From NCBI GenBank assembly GCA_016209865.1, contig JACQVL010000088.1, forward strand, positions 1 to 17,358: a stretch of DNA of 17,358 nt, in the 5' to 3' direction. Numbering within the stretch: the stretch's first letter is position 1; every line of letters begins with the position of its first letter. This DNA comes from Candidatus Latescibacterota bacterium (lineage in GTDB: Bacteria; JAAXHH01; JACQVL01). The notes beneath the pieces are model-generated. The model had not been told where the DNA came from. It saw nothing but the letters and a program-made list of their open reading frames with translations, and searched no databases. Positions 1,886-11,161 of this stretch are shown here, in pieces. Made by a program: the position numbers and the translations under genes.

Positions 1886-3298
1886 ATGATCGTCATGAAA
1901 TTCGGCGGGACGTCCGTCGGGACGGTCGAGGCGCTTCAGCAGGTCGCCCGGATCGTCGCCCAGTCCCGCCATCTCCAGCCGGTCGTCGTCGTCTCCGCCA
2001 TGAGCGGGGTGACGGACACGCTCCGCGCGATCGCGGCAGATGCATCTCAGGGGAATCGCGCCGACGTCCAGTGCCGGATCGAGGACCTGCGTGCCCGGCA
2101 CACCTCCACCGTGTCGGCCCTGCTGTCGACCCAGGAGCGAGAGGGGATGGTGGAGACAGTCACCTATCTGATCGACGAACTGGAGAACGTCTGTCACGGC
2201 ATCACTCTGCTACAGGAATTGAGCCCGCGCACGATCGACCTGGTCAGCTCGTTCGGGGAACGGCTGTCCGCGCCGCTCGTCTCTGCCGTCCTCCGGGAGC
2301 AGGGTGTCCCGTCCACGCCGTACGATGCCCGGTTGTCCATCAAGACGGACGATCGTTACACCGAGGCTGAGGTCGATTTCGCCGAGACGAACTCTCGTTT
2401 AGTCGAGGGACTCCGGCCGGCGGTCGACGCGGGGACCATCCCGGTCATCACCGGGTTCATCGGCTCGACGCAGCACGACGTGACGACGACCCTCGGCCGG
2501 GGCGCGTCGGATTACACCGCCGCCATCGTCGGGAGCGCGCTCAAGGCGGATGAAATCTGGATCTGGACGGACGTGGACGGGGCGATGACCGCCGACCCGC
2601 GGATCGTCAGCGAAGCGCGGGTCTTAGCGAAGATCAGCTACCAGGAAGCGGCCGAGATGTCGTACTTCGGCGCGAAAGTCCTCCATCCGAAAACGATGCT
2701 GCCCGCGGTCAAGGACCGGATTCCCATCCGGATCAAGAACACCTTCAACCCGTCCACCACGGGCACGCTCATCTCCGAGGAGACGGTCTCCTCTCCGCTT
2801 GGGGTGAAGACGGTGACGAACATCGACCATGTCTGCCTGGTCACGATCGAGGGCAGCGGGCTGATCGGGATGCCGGACACTCCGGCGCGGGTGTTCAAGA
2901 CGACCGCTCAGCATCAGGTGAACCTCATCATGTTCACTCAGGCGTCGTCCGAGCATGATATCTGTCTGGTGATTCTCGACAAGGAAAGCGACACGGTCGT
3001 CAAAGCCCTCCTGTCGGAGTTCCGGCACGAACTGGAGCGCGGGAGCTTAGAGGCGATCACCGTCCAGCCGGACATCGCGGTCGTGGCGGTTGTCGGGGAG
3101 GGCATGAAGGGAACGCCGGGGATCGCGGCGCGGACGTTCGGCGCGTTGGGGGCGCATCGGATCAACATCATCGCCATCGCGCAAGGGTCGTCGGAGTTGA
3201 ACATCTCGTTCGTCGTCGACCGCAAAGAATTGAAGGAAACCGTCCGGTTGGTTCATAGCGCGTTCGAGCTGGATAAATCAGTGACGAGTGACAAGTGA
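1886..3298 (+). CDS. lysC: Aspartate kinase (aspartokinase), ThrA N-half type
   Basis: Phosphorylates aspartate to 4-phospho-aspartate, the committed step toward lysine, threonine and methionine; cytoplasmic. The 470-residue protein opens with the KFGGTSVG motif (residues 5-12). It keeps SAMSGVTDTL, SSFGERLSAPL, the TTLGRGASDYTAA loop and the WTDVDG and ADPR substrate/nucleotide segments. Two ACT regulatory domains fill roughly residues 310-465, so feedback inhibition is likely. ATG 1886 has AAGGA at 1871-1875; ATG 1895 is an alternative. The last residues (SVTSDK) and the UGA stop are encoded by a heptamer repeat. The homoserine dehydrogenase continues in the same frame straight after the stop. 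Length and order match the first half of the bifunctional enzyme ThrA. The symbol lysC is generic; isozyme specificity cannot be read from the sequence. Confidence 0.93.
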   Translation: MIVMKFGGTSVGTVEALQQVARIVAQSRHLQPVVVVSAMSGVTDTLRAIAADASQGNRADVQCRIEDLRARHTSTVSALLSTQEREGMVETVTYLIDELENVCHGITLLQELSPRTIDLVSSFGERLSAPLVSAVLREQGVPSTPYDARLSIKTDDRYTEAEVDFAETNSRLVEGLRPAVDAGTIPVITGFIGSTQHDVTTTLGRGASDYTAAIVGSALKADEIWIWTDVDGAMTADPRIVSEARVLAKISYQEAAEMSYFGAKVLHPKTMLPAVKDRIPIRIKNTFNPSTTGTLISEETVSSPLGVKTVTNIDHVCLVTIEGSGLIGMPDTPARVFKTTAQHQVNLIMFTQASSEHDICLVILDKESDTVVKALLSEFRHELERGSLEAITVQPDIAVVAVVGEGMKGTPGIAARTFGALGAHRINIIAIAQGSSELNISFVVDRKELKETVRLVHSAFELDKSVTSDK

Positions 3299-3309
3299 CG
3301 AGTGAAAAA
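3279..3309 (+). repeat. Heptamer array AGTGACR, copy 1, at the lysC-hom junction
   Basis: Three units (AGTGACG 3280-3286, AGTGACA 3287-3293, AGTGACG 3294-3300) are followed by a partial fourth (AGTGA). The 31-base block recurs at 8278-8308 with one mismatch. Every unit contains TGA and the period is 7, so three units place a TGA in all three forward reading frames. The copy here provides the lysC stop codon (3296-3298) and a possible GTG start (3302) for the next gene. Confidence 0.85.
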
Positions 3310-3319
3310 CAAGGATTTC

Positions 3320-4411
3320 ATGAGAACCTTCCATCTTTTCCAGTTCGGTAAGGGGAACATCGGCGTGGCGCTGATCGCGCAGATGATCCACCAGCAGCAA
3401 GCTCTGGAAACGCAGTACGGGGTGCGCCTCGAGTACGTCGGGGTGTGCGGGCGCGAGCGGGCGACGATCGACCCCAACGGCCTGAACCGGGCGCTGGAAC
3501 TGAGCAACGGCCGGATCGACAGCATCGTCACCCTTCACCCGAAGAGTCGCGTCCACCACGGGTTCCGCTGGTTGATCGACGAAGTCCAGCGGCTGGACAT
3601 CCCCGACCTGCTCGTCATCGACCTGACCGCCTCGGAACTGACCCCGCTGCATCTGATGTGTCTTCAGCAGGGCATCCCGGTGGTGACGGCCAATAAGAAG
3701 CCCGTCTCCGATGACTACGAGGTGTACGCCGAACTCCAGCGACTCGGCCGGTCGGGTAAACAGTTATACTGGTACGAAGCGACCGTCGGCGCAGGACTGC
3801 CGGTCATCAGCACCCTGCGGGAGATCGTCGTCACCGGGGACGCCGTCGTGGAGATCATCGGATGTCTGAGCGGGACGCTGGGGTACATCTGTTCCCAGCT
3901 CGACACCGGACGGCGCTTCTCCGAGATCGTGCGCGAAGCGAAGGCGCGCGGGTACACCGAACCCGACCCGAGGGATGACCTCAGCGGGATGGACGTGGCC
4001 CGGAAGGCGCTCATCCTCGCCCGCGAGATCGGCTCCACCCTCAACCTGGCCGACGTGCACGTCGAGAGCATGATCTCCGACGTCCTGGCGCAGACCGGGA
4101 CGGCCGAGGAGTTCATGAAGCGCATCCGGCTTGAGGACGATAGCTACGAGGCACGCGTGGAGGACAGCCGGCGCCGTGGCGAAGTCCTGCGGTACGTGGC
4201 GACGGTGCACGACGGCCGGTGCGAGGTCGGCCTGCGGAGCGTCCTGAAGGACAGCCCGGCCGGCAACCTGTCCGGTCCGGACAACCTGCTTGCGTTCCGC
4301 ACGGCGCGGTATTCGGACAACCTGCTCGTCATCCGGGGACCCGGCGCGGGCGCGCAGGTCACCGCCGCGGGCGTGTTCGGCGACATCCTGAAGGCAGCGG
4401 GAGTGAGATAG
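3320..4411 (+). CDS. hom: Homoserine dehydrogenase, ThrA C-half type, without ACT domain
   Basis: NAD(P)H-dependent reduction of aspartate semialdehyde to homoserine, the branch point to threonine and methionine. From ATG 3320 the protein has 363 residues. A Rossmann motif GKGNIG lies at 10-15, ANKK at 124-127, VGAGLP at 156-161, and the family signature GYTEPDPRDDLSGMDVARK at 211-229, including the conserved Glu, Asp and Lys of the active site. The signature closely matches the C-terminal half of E. coli ThrA as I recall it. Gram-positive-style Hom proteins are about 430 residues with a C-terminal ACT domain, which is absent here. ATG 3320 has AAGGA only 4 bases upstream; GTG 3302 is possible but would translate repeat sequence. 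It lies in frame with lysC. Confidence 0.92.
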   Translation: MRTFHLFQFGKGNIGVALIAQMIHQQQALETQYGVRLEYVGVCGRERATIDPNGLNRALELSNGRIDSIVTLHPKSRVHHGFRWLIDEVQRLDIPDLLVIDLTASELTPLHLMCLQQGIPVVTANKKPVSDDYEVYAELQRLGRSGKQLYWYEATVGAGLPVISTLREIVVTGDAVVEIIGCLSGTLGYICSQLDTGRRFSEIVREAKARGYTEPDPRDDLSGMDVARKALILAREIGSTLNLADVHVESMISDVLAQTGTAEEFMKRIRLEDDSYEARVEDSRRRGEVLRYVATVHDGRCEVGLRSVLKDSPAGNLSGPDNLLAFRTARYSDNLLVIRGPGAGAQVTAAGVFGDILKAAGVR

Positions 4412-4417
4412 GAATGG

Positions 4418-4455
4418 AGGGGCGAAGCATTCGCTTCCGCGAATGCTTCGCCCTT
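4418..4455 (+). repeat. Perfect long hairpin between hom and asd
   Basis: GGGCGAAGCATTCGC (4420-4434) pairs without mismatch with GCGAATGCTTCGCCC (4439-4453) around the loop TTCC. A G-T wobble and an A-T pair extend the stem to 17 positions. It begins 6 bases after the hom stop and ends 2 bases before the asd ribosome binding site. No T-run follows, so it does not look like a simple intrinsic terminator. It could be an mRNA stabiliser or processing site, a translational control element for asd, or a dispersed repeat of the GGGCGAA...TTCGCCC type. Confidence 0.8.
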
Positions 4456-4471: not shown

Positions 4472-5527
4472 ATGCCCATCCGTGTCGGCATTTTAGGGGC
4501 GACCGGCGCAGTCGGTCAGCGGTTCGTGCAGTTGTTGGACGGCCATCCGTGGTTCACCGTCACCGCCCTCGCCGCGTCCGAGCGGTCGGCCGACAAGCCC
4601 TATGGCGAGACGGTCAACTGGCGGCTCGAGACAGACATCCCGGCGTACGCCCGGTCGATGGTCGTCCAGCCGTGCGAGCCGGGCTTAGCATGCGACCTCG
4701 TCTTCTCTGGCCTCGACTCGAAAGTCGCCGGCCCGATCGAGGAGGCGTTCGCTCAGGCCGGGTACCCGGTCATCAGCAACTCGAAGAACCATCGGATGGA
4801 TGAGGATGTGCCGCTGCTCATCCCGGAGGTGAACCCAGACCACACCGCCATCATCCCCCATCAGCGACAGCGGCGGGGGTACGGCCGGGGGTTCATCGTG
4901 ACCAACCCGAACTGCACCAGCGTCGGGCTGACGATGGCGCTCAAGCCGCTCGCCGACCGGTTCGGGATCACGACGGTGGCGGTCACGACGATGCAGGCGC
5001 TCTCCGGCGCGGGGTATCCGGGCGTCGCCTCCCTCGACATCCTCGACAACGTCTTCCCGTACATCGGGGATGAAGAGGAGAAGATGGAGCGGGAGCCGCT
5101 GAAGCTCTTGGGACGTTGTGATGGGACTGAATTTACCCCGGCGCCGATCGCCATCAGCGCGCAATGTAATCGCGTGCACGTGAAGGACGGCCATCTCGAA
5201 TGTGTCTCCGTCGCCCTCAGCGACCGGACGGACGAGGCGGCGGTCGCGGAGACGTTCCGGTGGTTCACCGCGCTCCCGCAGGAACTGCGGTTGCCGTTTG
5301 CGCCCGCGCAGCCGGTGGTCGTCCGTGACGAGAAAGACCGCCCGCAGCCCCGGTACGACCGGGACGCCGGGAACGGGATGTCAGTCGTCGTCGGCCGCAT
5401 CCGGCGATGCCCGGTGCTCGACTTCAAATTTTTGGTGCTCGTCCACAACACCATTCGCGGCGCGGCGGGCGCGGCGGTGTTGAACGCGGAGCTGCTGAAG
5501 GCGCAGGGGTATATCGGTGGTCGGTGA
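4472..5527 (+). CDS. asd: Aspartate-semialdehyde dehydrogenase (archaeal/fungal-type)
   Basis: Reduces 4-phospho-aspartate with NADPH to aspartate semialdehyde, the step between the kinase and homoserine dehydrogenase encoded just upstream. 351 residues. The Rossmann motif GATGAVGQRF lies at 9-18. The catalytic Cys148 is in TNPNCTS, QALSGAGYPG at 175-184 is the flexible active-site loop, and the substrate-binding and catalytic segment NRVHVKDGH spans 233-241. HNTIRGAAGAAVLNAELL near the end is typical of the branch found in archaea, fungi and some bacteria. ATG 4472 has AAAGGAG at 4458-4464. The last codons (GGR) and the TGA stop lie inside a GGTGRTC heptamer array. Confidence 0.94.
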   Translation: MPIRVGILGATGAVGQRFVQLLDGHPWFTVTALAASERSADKPYGETVNWRLETDIPAYARSMVVQPCEPGLACDLVFSGLDSKVAGPIEEAFAQAGYPVISNSKNHRMDEDVPLLIPEVNPDHTAIIPHQRQRRGYGRGFIVTNPNCTSVGLTMALKPLADRFGITTVAVTTMQALSGAGYPGVASLDILDNVFPYIGDEEEKMEREPLKLLGRCDGTEFTPAPIAISAQCNRVHVKDGHLECVSVALSDRTDEAAVAETFRWFTALPQELRLPFAPAQPVVVRDEKDRPQPRYDRDAGNGMSVVVGRIRRCPVLDFKFLVLVHNTIRGAAGAAVLNAELLKAQGYIGGR

Positions 5528-5539
5528 TCGGTGGTCGGT
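5516..5539 (+). repeat. Heptamer array GGTGRTC at the asd-batD junction
   Basis: Units GGTGGTC (5516-5522), GGTGATC (5523-5529) and GGTGGTC (5530-5536) are followed by GGT. It overlaps the 3' end of asd and supplies the asd stop codon TGA (5525-5527). A GTG at 5517 inside the array opens an in-frame extension of the next gene, but that would translate only repeat sequence. Related copies lie at 8256-8269, 8371-8405 (inverted) and 11165-11178 (degenerate). Confidence 0.85.
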
Positions 5540-8251: not shown

Positions 8252-8408
8252 AATCAGTGGTCGGTGGTCGGTTAAACCAGTGACGAGTGACAAGTGACGA
8301 GTCAAAAATGGCTTCACCCGTTTCTGGATGGTGCCATTCCCGCGAAAACGGGAATCCGTTTGTTTTTACCGACCACCGATCACCGACCACCGACCACCGA
8401 TCACTGAA
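8252..8408. repeat. Composite repeat block between batE and the HMA gene
   Basis: This 157-base gap is nearly all repeats. In order: two GGTGRTC-family units (8256-8269), a 31-base AGTGACR array (8278-8308), a 20-base palindrome (8336-8355), a T-rich run, and five inverted units (GACCACC, GATCACC, GACCACC, GACCACC, GATCACT; 8371-8405). The first pair and the inverted units are complementary over about 16 bases, so the transcript could fold into a long stem with the small palindrome in its loop. The two convergent genes end on either side. Confidence 0.8.
8336..8367 (+). terminator. Hairpin plus T-rich tail, possible terminator of the Bat cluster
   Basis: ATTCCCG (8336-8342) pairs perfectly with CGGGAAT (8349-8355) around CGAAAA and is followed by CCGTTTGTTTTT. 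On the plus strand this fits an intrinsic terminator with an imperfect T-tract, about 85 bases after the batE stop. The 20-base core also fits the pattern ATTCCC-N8-GGGAAT, the form of the neisserial dRS3 repeat, so it may be a dispersed repeat that doubles as a terminator. Confidence 0.5.
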
Positions 8409-8700: not shown

Positions 8701-8843
8701 GCCGTCCAGTAGGGACAGGGACTTTCATGTCCGGGCTCGGCCCTCACTATCCCCCACAAGGAGCAAGAAAGGGGAAGTCCCAGAAGACACGGTTGTCTCC
8801 TCTCTCCCCACCGTGTGAGAGGGGCCGGGGGTGAGGGTCTCAC
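8701..8843. repeat. Repeat-rich leader upstream of the first haem-barrel gene
   Basis: The gap between the HMA gene and the haem-barrel gene carries several palindromes. GGACA (8713-8717) pairs with TGTCC (8728-8732) inside a GTAGGGACAGGG-type repeat. CCTCTC (8799-8804) pairs with GAGAGG (8817-8822) and is followed by a G-rich GGCCGGGGGTGAGGG run, a motif common in intergenic regions of GC-rich environmental bacteria. The word CACAAGGAG occurs twice (from about 8755 and 8841), the second time as the SD of the next gene. I see no clear promoter for that gene. Confidence 0.5.
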
Positions 8844-8856
8844 AAGGAGAAGGGTG

Positions 8857-9966
8857 ATGTCTACGTTCCGGCGCTTGCTCCCTGGAGTCGTCCTGGTGCT
8901 CGTCCTGTGTGCCATGACGGCTGTGCACGCGGAGCCGTACCTGGCCGTCCGGGAAGGGTTGAAATGCAGCGCCTGTCACGTCAATCGCACCGGACAGGGG
9001 AAGCGGAGTGCGTTCGGGGCCAGCTATTCCTTGACGAAACTCCCGGCGATCCTCATGCTGGAATCCCGGCGGGGTGAGACGCTGAACCGGAGTGCGAGCG
9101 ATTTTCTGGCGGTCGGGGCGGATTTTCGGTTGCAGAATCACACGAATTTCCGCGTGCAGGGGGTGGTCGATCCACCCGCCCATCAGAACGCCAACTCGTT
9201 CCTGTTGTATGAAGGGAATCTCTACGGGGAAGTGACGCTCGTGAAGGACCGGCTCGCGTTCTACGTCGACGAACGGGTGGCCCCTGATGCGGCGGGCAGC
9301 CGGGAAATCGTGGCGCTCATGCGAGGCTTCCCGTATAATACGTACGTCAAAGTCGGCCGGATGTTCATCCCGTATGGGCTCAGGCTCTGGGATTATGATG
9401 CGTTCATCCGGAACAAAACCGGGATTCAGGGGGAGGAGTTCGGGTTTGAAGTGGGGGCTGAACCCGGGCCATTTTCCTTGAGTGCGGCCGCGTTGAACGC
9501 TGAACCGTTTCGAGCGTTCGATACCAATACCGCGAAGCAAGTCTCGGTCGTAGCCTCTGCGGTCTTCCGCCATGCTCGCGTCGGCGGGTCGTTCAACCTC
9601 AACACGAAGGCGCAGACGATGGGCGGCCCGTTCATCGGACTCACCGCCGGCCCGGTCACCCTCCTCGGCGAGTTCGACCTCATCCAGTTTTCCAGCGGCG
9701 GACGAGAGATCACCCAGCGGGTCGCGTACGGGGAGATGAACATCCTGCTCAAACGGGGACTGAACGTCAAAGGCGCGTTTGACTATTTCGACCCGCGGAA
9801 CGGGGACCCCAAGCTGAAGCGGTACCGGTTCGGGTTCGAGCCGGTCATCACTCCGTTCCTTCAACCCCGCGTGTTCTACACGGTCAACCGTCCCAGCATC
9901 CTGCCGGGTGCGGCCGGGAAGGGGAACGGAGATCAGCTCAGTATTGAGCTCCATGTGTTCCTGTGA
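8857..9966 (+). CDS. Exported mono-haem c barrel-like protein (porin-cytochrome-like), paralogue 1
   Basis: 369 residues. The signal peptide (about 1-25) ends in VHA before EPYLAVREG. One c-type haem motif CSACH lies at 37-41 in the context EGLKCSACHVNRTGQGKR, followed by a conserved FG. The remaining 310 or so residues alternate polar and hydrophobic stretches with many Gly and aromatic residues (YVKVGRMFIPYGLRLWDYD, FGFEVGAEPGP, NVKGAFDYFDP, RFGFEPVITPF) and end IELHVFL, like an outer-membrane beta barrel. N-terminal haem plus barrel is the layout of Cyc2-type porin-cytochromes, which carry electrons across the outer membrane; homology to Cyc2 is not proven. ATG 8857 has AAGGAGA at 8844-8850. 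A tandem paralogue follows at 10046. It could instead be a non-electron-transfer outer-membrane protein with a haem anchor. Confidence 0.75.
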   Translation: MSTFRRLLPGVVLVLVLCAMTAVHAEPYLAVREGLKCSACHVNRTGQGKRSAFGASYSLTKLPAILMLESRRGETLNRSASDFLAVGADFRLQNHTNFRVQGVVDPPAHQNANSFLLYEGNLYGEVTLVKDRLAFYVDERVAPDAAGSREIVALMRGFPYNTYVKVGRMFIPYGLRLWDYDAFIRNKTGIQGEEFGFEVGAEPGPFSLSAAALNAEPFRAFDTNTAKQVSVVASAVFRHARVGGSFNLNTKAQTMGGPFIGLTAGPVTLLGEFDLIQFSSGGREITQRVAYGEMNILLKRGLNVKGAFDYFDPRNGDPKLKRYRFGFEPVITPFLQPRVFYTVNRPSILPGAAGKGNGDQLSIELHVFL

Positions 9967-10045: not shown

Positions 10046-11161
10046 ATGCCCTCTTCGCGCTATTCGTCCTTACTCGCCGTCCTGGTGCTCGTCCTGTGTG
10101 CCATGGCGACTGTGCACGCGGAGCCGTACCTGGCCGTCCGGGAAGGGTTGAAATGCAGTGCGTGTCACGTGAATCGCACCGGGCAAGGGAAACGGAATGC
10201 GTTCGGAGTCAGCTTCACTCAGACCAAGCTCCCCGCGATCGTCACGCCGGCTGCTCAACGAGGAGACATCATCAACCGGAACATCAGCGAGTTTCTGTCG
10301 GTCGGGGCGGATTTTCGGCTGGTGAACACGACAGCACTGAGCGTGAAGAAGGCGACGCCGCCGGCCAAGACCCAGAATACGTTTCTCCTGTTCGAAGGGA
10401 ATGTGTACGGTGAAGTGACCCTGGTGAAGGATCGTCTGACGTTCTATGTGGATGAGCAGGTCGCCCCGGATGCGGCCGGAAACCGTGAGATCCTGGGCAT
10501 CCTCCGCGGTTTGCCCAATAACGCCTATGTGAAAGTCGGCCGGATGTTCCTCCCGTACGGGCTTCGGCTCTGGGATTTCGATGCGTTCATCCGAAGCCAG
10601 ACCGGACTGTTAGGACAGGATTTTGGAGTGGAAGTGGGGGCTGAACCCGGACCGGTTTCTCTGAGCGCGGCGGTGTCGAACGGGGAACCATTCCGTTCCT
10701 TCGATACCAATAGAGGGAAACAGTTGACCCTCAGCATCGCGGGTGTCACCCCTGTTGTCCGTGTCGGCGGGTCGTTCTCGGTGAACACCACCGATCCAAC
10801 GATCGCCATCGCCAGGAAAGCCCTGACGATGGGAGGGCCGTTCGTCGGGCTGACCGGCGGGCCGGTGACCGTGCTCGGTGAACTCGACGTGGTCCGTCGG
10901 TACGTGGGGACGAAGTACGTCACCCAGAAAGTCGTGTACGGAGAGGCCAACATCCTGTTCACACGGGGAGTGAGCGCGAAAGTCGCGTACGACTATTTCG
11001 ACCCGAGCGGCGGGCCGAAACTCAAACGGGTCCGCATCGGGTTCGAGCCGTTCATCACCCAGTTTATCCAGCCCCGCCTGTTCTACGCGGTGAACCGGCC
11101 GCACGTGTTGCCAGGGGCGAACGGGGATCAGGTGACGCTTGAGCTGCACATGCTGTTTTAA
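10046..11161 (+). CDS. Exported mono-haem c barrel-like protein (porin-cytochrome-like), paralogue 2
   Basis: 371-residue paralogue of the preceding gene, collinear over its whole length. It has a signal peptide (residues 1-25, ending VHA), CSACH at 37-41 in EGLKCSACHVNRTGQGKR, and then FG. Matching barrel-like segments include LFEGNVYGEVTLVKDRLTFYV, YVKVGRMFLPYGLRLWDFD, GVEVGAEPGP and VAYDYFDP. It ends LELHMLF; the terminal Phe is the classic C-terminal signal for outer-membrane barrel insertion. It carries a small insert (around TTDPTIAIARKA) relative to paralogue 1. ATG 10046 has AAGGAG about 9 bases upstream. The first 80 or so coding bases are nearly identical to paralogue 1, while later parts have diverged. 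Electron transfer across the outer membrane is the leading guess; substrate and partners are unknown. Confidence 0.75.
   Translation: MPSSRYSSLLAVLVLVLCAMATVHAEPYLAVREGLKCSACHVNRTGQGKRNAFGVSFTQTKLPAIVTPAAQRGDIINRNISEFLSVGADFRLVNTTALSVKKATPPAKTQNTFLLFEGNVYGEVTLVKDRLTFYVDEQVAPDAAGNREILGILRGLPNNAYVKVGRMFLPYGLRLWDFDAFIRSQTGLLGQDFGVEVGAEPGPVSLSAAVSNGEPFRSFDTNRGKQLTLSIAGVTPVVRVGGSFSVNTTDPTIAIARKALTMGGPFVGLTGGPVTVLGELDVVRRYVGTKYVTQKVVYGEANILFTRGVSAKVAYDYFDPSGGPKLKRVRIGFEPFITQFIQPRLFYAVNRPHVLPGANGDQVTLELHMLF

Follow-up and report, generated by a model that had tools for sequence, protein, structure and literature searches.

The window analysed here, the whole 17,358-nucleotide stretch of contig JACQVL010000088.1 from a Candidatus Latescibacterota bacterium, carries a lysC-hom-asd cluster with a heptamer array at the end of its first gene (Table 1). 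The lysC product has 470 residues and matches the Pfam families AA_kinase and ACT (two ACT_9 stretches). Its best NCBIfam match is the aspartate kinase (AK) PRK06291, at 545 bits and above cut-off, and its second is to ThrA positions 1-462. The hom product, which matches Homoserine_dh and NAD_binding_3 but no ACT domain in Pfam, has ThrA positions 464-813 as its best NCBIfam match, so that the two proteins tile ThrA as two halves. Neither protein alone reaches the 726-bit cut-off of the ThrA profile NF006959, the scores being 504 and 358. The likeness to bifunctional ThrA (AK-HSD I) is one of halves, of their order, and of an AK with ACT domains followed by a homoserine dehydrogenase (HSD) without one; the difference is that there are two genes here and in every relative from the same order that has the pair. 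Further along the window, two adjacent and similar ORFs (8815-9966 and 10046-11161) share an N-terminal C-x-x-C-H motif (KCSACHVN); neither gave a Pfam match.

Table 1. Features of the lysC-hom-asd cluster, in window positions
Feature	Position	Strand	Basis
lysC, ACT-containing aspartate kinase of the ThrA / PRK06291 class	1886..3298	+	ORF, NCBIfam, Pfam
Heptamer array AGTGACG AGTGACA AGTGACG AGTGA(AA), UGA in all three forward frames	3280..3307	+	TRF, genome pattern search
lysC stop codon TGA, next base C, inside the heptamer array	3296..3298	+	Sequence
Putative Shine-Dalgarno AAGGA, 4 nt 5' of the hom ATG	3311..3315	+	Inference
hom, ThrA-type homoserine dehydrogenase without ACT domain	3320..4411	+	Pfam, start alignment with relatives
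asd, aspartate-semialdehyde dehydrogenase, third gene of the cluster	4472..5527	+	Profile match; cluster also in relatives

An earlier, sequence-only reading of this DNA had drawn attention to the junction, and its description is largely borne out. The ORFs confirm that lysC and hom share one frame, with a single UGA inside the heptamer repeat as the sole stop between them; the hom frame is open from GTG 3302 and contains an ATG at 3320. Deleting 21 bp in silico gives one frame of 834 codons, as had been calculated (about 834), and the profile matches agree with its view that hom lacks an ACT domain of its own and that the halves are of ThrA type. The array itself, taken there as three 7-base units at 3280-3300, is real, although it is nearer to four units (26-28 bp) than to three: TRF reports a 7-bp array at 3280-3305 with 3.7 copies of AGTGACG. 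It is far beyond chance, since none of 200 shuffles gave six or more matches. The last codons of lysC (SVTSDK) and its stop are supplied by this array. The continuous AK-HSD frame required of a bifunctional ThrA is absent, being interrupted by the TGA, and the relatives have separate genes too.

The array is one member of a large family. The heptamer pattern AGTGACNAGTGACNAGTGA has 360 matches in this genome, where the reversed control pattern has none, and it has no match in 15 genomes of the same order. The repeats are thus a dispersed family of many near-identical arrays. They also have common flanks, typically ...aaatC on the 5' side and an A-rich CGAGtaaaaac on the 3' side; arrays L033-L062 have the A-rich sequence 3' of the heptamers in common, and the last base of their 5' flank is usually C. 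This suggests that the repeated unit may be larger than the heptamers alone. Because seven is not a multiple of three, three successive units put TGA in frames 0, 1 and 2, and a forward gene that enters an array of at least three units must therefore stop there.

The consequences were followed in 65 sampled arrays, around which genes were called crudely from codon usage, with poorly resolved starts. By these crude calls, the stop of the upstream co-directional gene falls inside the array in 21 cases, 37 arrays are intergenic and seven overlap a predicted gene on the opposite strand. Where a co-directional gene follows (14 junctions), frames 0, 1 and 2 occur 7, 3 and 4 times, and four of the 14, lysC-hom among them, have exactly one UGA in a shared frame. 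Two of the other three join functionally unrelated pairs: in one a short-chain dehydrogenase gene follows a gene of the NADH:flavin oxidoreductase family, and in the other a cation-efflux gene follows an M24 peptidase gene (the fourth junction is L037). The flavin oxidoreductase-family gene ends in KSVTSDK*, with last residues identical to those of lysC, because the same array is read in the same frame. Adjacent genes share a frame in one case out of three and three or more units give a UGA in every frame, so the in-frame, single-UGA layout is ordinary. Unlike the array itself, the layout of lysC-hom is not far beyond chance.

Other repeats lie close by. Between hom and asd there is a perfect inverted repeat, GGGCGAAGCATTCGC-ttcc-GCGAATGCTTCGCCC (4420-4453), which also belongs to a dispersed family, with 21 arms in the genome, many of them in pairs at a distance of about 45 bp. 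Another heptamer family, GGTCGGT / ACCGACC, occurs at 5513-5539, 8257-8273 and 8368-8404, and its two-unit pattern has 32 exact matches in the genome. At 5513-5527 this family forms the last codons of asd together with its stop (GYIGGR*), as the AGTGACN array does for lysC.

Fourteen other genomes of the order yielded Hom matches, at 54-59% identity; none of these genomes is close enough to display an empty site. In all 14, lysC lies directly 5' of hom as a separate gene in another frame (a difference of 1 or 2). The overlap is 4 bp (GTGA) in the nearest relatives, L003 and L004, and 8-14 bp, mostly 14, in the remainder. Where the records of these loci are named, they are labelled as Latescibacterota, Gemmatimonadetes or Zixiibacteriota MAGs. 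A genome from another family of the order, 85% complete (G001), gave no match. As in the window, asd follows hom in the relatives, and it does so in a Chloroflexia group as well. Separate, overlapping ThrA-class genes are the rule in this order.

The start of hom is shared with these repeat-free relatives. MRTFHLFQ aligns with their VKTYHLFQ and VKTLHLFQ, giving a common motif [M/V]-[K/R]-T-x-H-L-F, and the bases AAGG..TTTC stand 5' of the hom start in L003 as they do in the window. In the sister fused proteins the same position reads TSATHVFV, and there is no start codon.

The position of hom was examined in an HSD tree of 82 rows. The window protein falls in one clade with those of six order relatives (100/99) and branches off first within it; closest to this clade stand the fused proteins L017 and L063, with moderate support (93/71). 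A second, distinct clade (100/99) holds twelve stand-alone Hom proteins, and hom is placed with the ThrA-type proteins, far from these. Profiles, Pfam and tree together make hom a ThrA-class HSD without a C-terminal ACT domain; a stand-alone Hom with such a domain was also considered, and is ruled out by the missing ACT match and the separate clade. The AK tree, built without a stand-alone AK outgroup, also recovers the order clade (support 100); the class of the AK rests on profile scores and on the hit list, where kinases from fusions stand among stand-alone ones. Fusion to an AK is the usual state of this HSD class beyond the order, with open frames mostly of about 800-900 residues and some longer, and separate pairs occur in Chloroflexia/Thermobaculum, Rubrobacter and Bipolaricaulota records. 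AK-HSD fusions were treated in PMC1885841 as a gamma-proteobacterial event within the proteobacteria; with the wider sampling here they appear in several phyla. The other early branches include both fused and separate states, so that a still older ancestor may have had either. For the order itself, the simplest and most likely reading of these trees is that its ancestor already had separate genes and, as the window and its relatives form one clade, that the split most likely predates the repeat.

The alternative is that this lineage kept a fused thrA until the array split it, the relatives having been split independently at the same domain boundary. That this HSD class occurs most commonly as fused ThrA, that the fused group of L017 and L063 lies next to the order, that the window branches first within the order clade and that a deletion of exactly 21 bp opens the frame are all in its favour. 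It requires, though, two independent splits, and the shared start motif and AAGG..TTTC would also have had to arise independently in the same place. In silico deletions of 7, 14, 21, 26 and 28 bp were compared, and only that of 21 bp opens a fusion, an arbitrary choice when the whole array is about 28 bp. Removing the four units (28 bp, 3280-3307) leaves CTG GAT AAA TCA ACA AGG ATT TCA TGA, so that lysC ends FELDKSTRIS* and overlaps the hom start by 4 bp (ATGA), much like the junctions of L003 and L004 and with no fusion. This restoration is consistent with an ancestral overlap but is suggestive only and not proof; because the arrays share an A-rich 3' flank, the exact insert length is not fixed and may differ from 28 bp. 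The hom start common to the repeat-free relatives is the stronger evidence. The proposal that the repeat broke an ancestral fusion, and with it the expectation of a continuous fused gene in relatives without heptamers, therefore fails: all 14 pairs are separate and in other frames, the heptamer pattern is absent from these genomes, and removal of the array gives an overlap. We regard an independent split as quite unlikely.

We consider it highly probable that lysC and hom stand in their lysC-hom-asd cluster as two distinct genes, and that the dispersed array created the in-frame UGA end of lysC. The ThrA-class enzymes would already have been encoded separately in the common ancestor of the order, most likely by genes that overlapped briefly and in different frames at the lysC/hom junction. 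In this lineage an AGTGACN array of about 28 bp would have arisen at the 3' end of lysC by insertion or expansion, replacing its last few codons, supplying the UGA stop and shifting hom from the overlapping frame into that of lysC. Translation of hom would start from its own ATG at 3320, with AAGGA nearby. The apparent broken fusion is a by-product of the heptamer family.

A small functional amount of fused AK-HSD might still arise beside the separate enzymes by readthrough of the UGA. Only one UGA stands in the frame, and UGA is given as the most read-through stop in E. coli in the excerpt of PMC11126739. Against this, the shared frame and the junction are conserved in no relative, so conservation does not point to a selected fused product, and other gene pairs, whose members are no fusion partners, show this layout as well. 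The sequence-only reading had called UGA followed by C leaky in E. coli; the effects named in that excerpt for the base after the stop are those of G and T, which lends no support to C. We give readthrough very little credence. Equally improbable, in our judgement, is that 7-bp slippage could switch the locus between separate genes, a fused AK-HSD (loss of three units) and an overlapping pair (loss of four); if true, enzyme architecture would be variable, with the end of lysC and the spacing of hom changeable in 7-bp steps.

The array could also regulate hom translationally or post-transcriptionally, which would be compatible with separate genes and an array-made stop. It lies about 12-15 nt 5' of ATG 3320, and in a Beggiatoaceae genome TAACTGA heptamers stand just 5' of start codons (PMC4679880). 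Yet only five of the 65 sampled arrays are 25 nt or less 5' of a predicted forward start, by the crude gene calls, and many are found where genes end or between genes that run in other directions. Such a role seems unlikely, if less so than the other alternatives.

The AGTGACN arrays belong to an already known kind of dispersed bacterial heptamers. The TAACTGA direct repeats of marine Beggiatoaceae, for which a regulatory role was proposed (MacGregor 2015, PMC4679880), give stops in three frames and in 13 cases run over the stop codon of a gene lying upstream. Like them, the present arrays are dispersed, of few copies and mostly intergenic; they differ in unit and lineage, and in being found often where a gene ends, not chiefly in front of start codons. 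In Nostoc, Calothrix and Xanthomonas, heptanucleotide tandem repeats are over-represented intergenically, near a neighbouring ORF (PMC4692102); the ones examined closely there are rich in G (GGGAATC, GGGGATT), which AGTGACN is not. On split ThrA genes we found little literature. The closest counterparts to the gene arrangement are MAG clusters of Chloroflexia, Thermobaculum and Rubrobacter (L086-L088, L137), which have separate, adjacent ThrA-class lysC, hom and asd. They differ in a hom of about 43-49% identity, in the absence of an array at the junctions read, and in not being sister in the HSD tree. In these clusters lysC and hom almost abut.

That ThrA-class enzymes are encoded by separate, overlapping genes as a rule of this order is a modest side result. 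The wider point is that genes can be terminated by a dispersed heptamer whose arrays carry stops in all three frames, and that in about one case out of three this leaves the neighbour in frame and so imitates a broken fusion. Such repeat-made pseudo-fusions are a trap in the reading of genomes.
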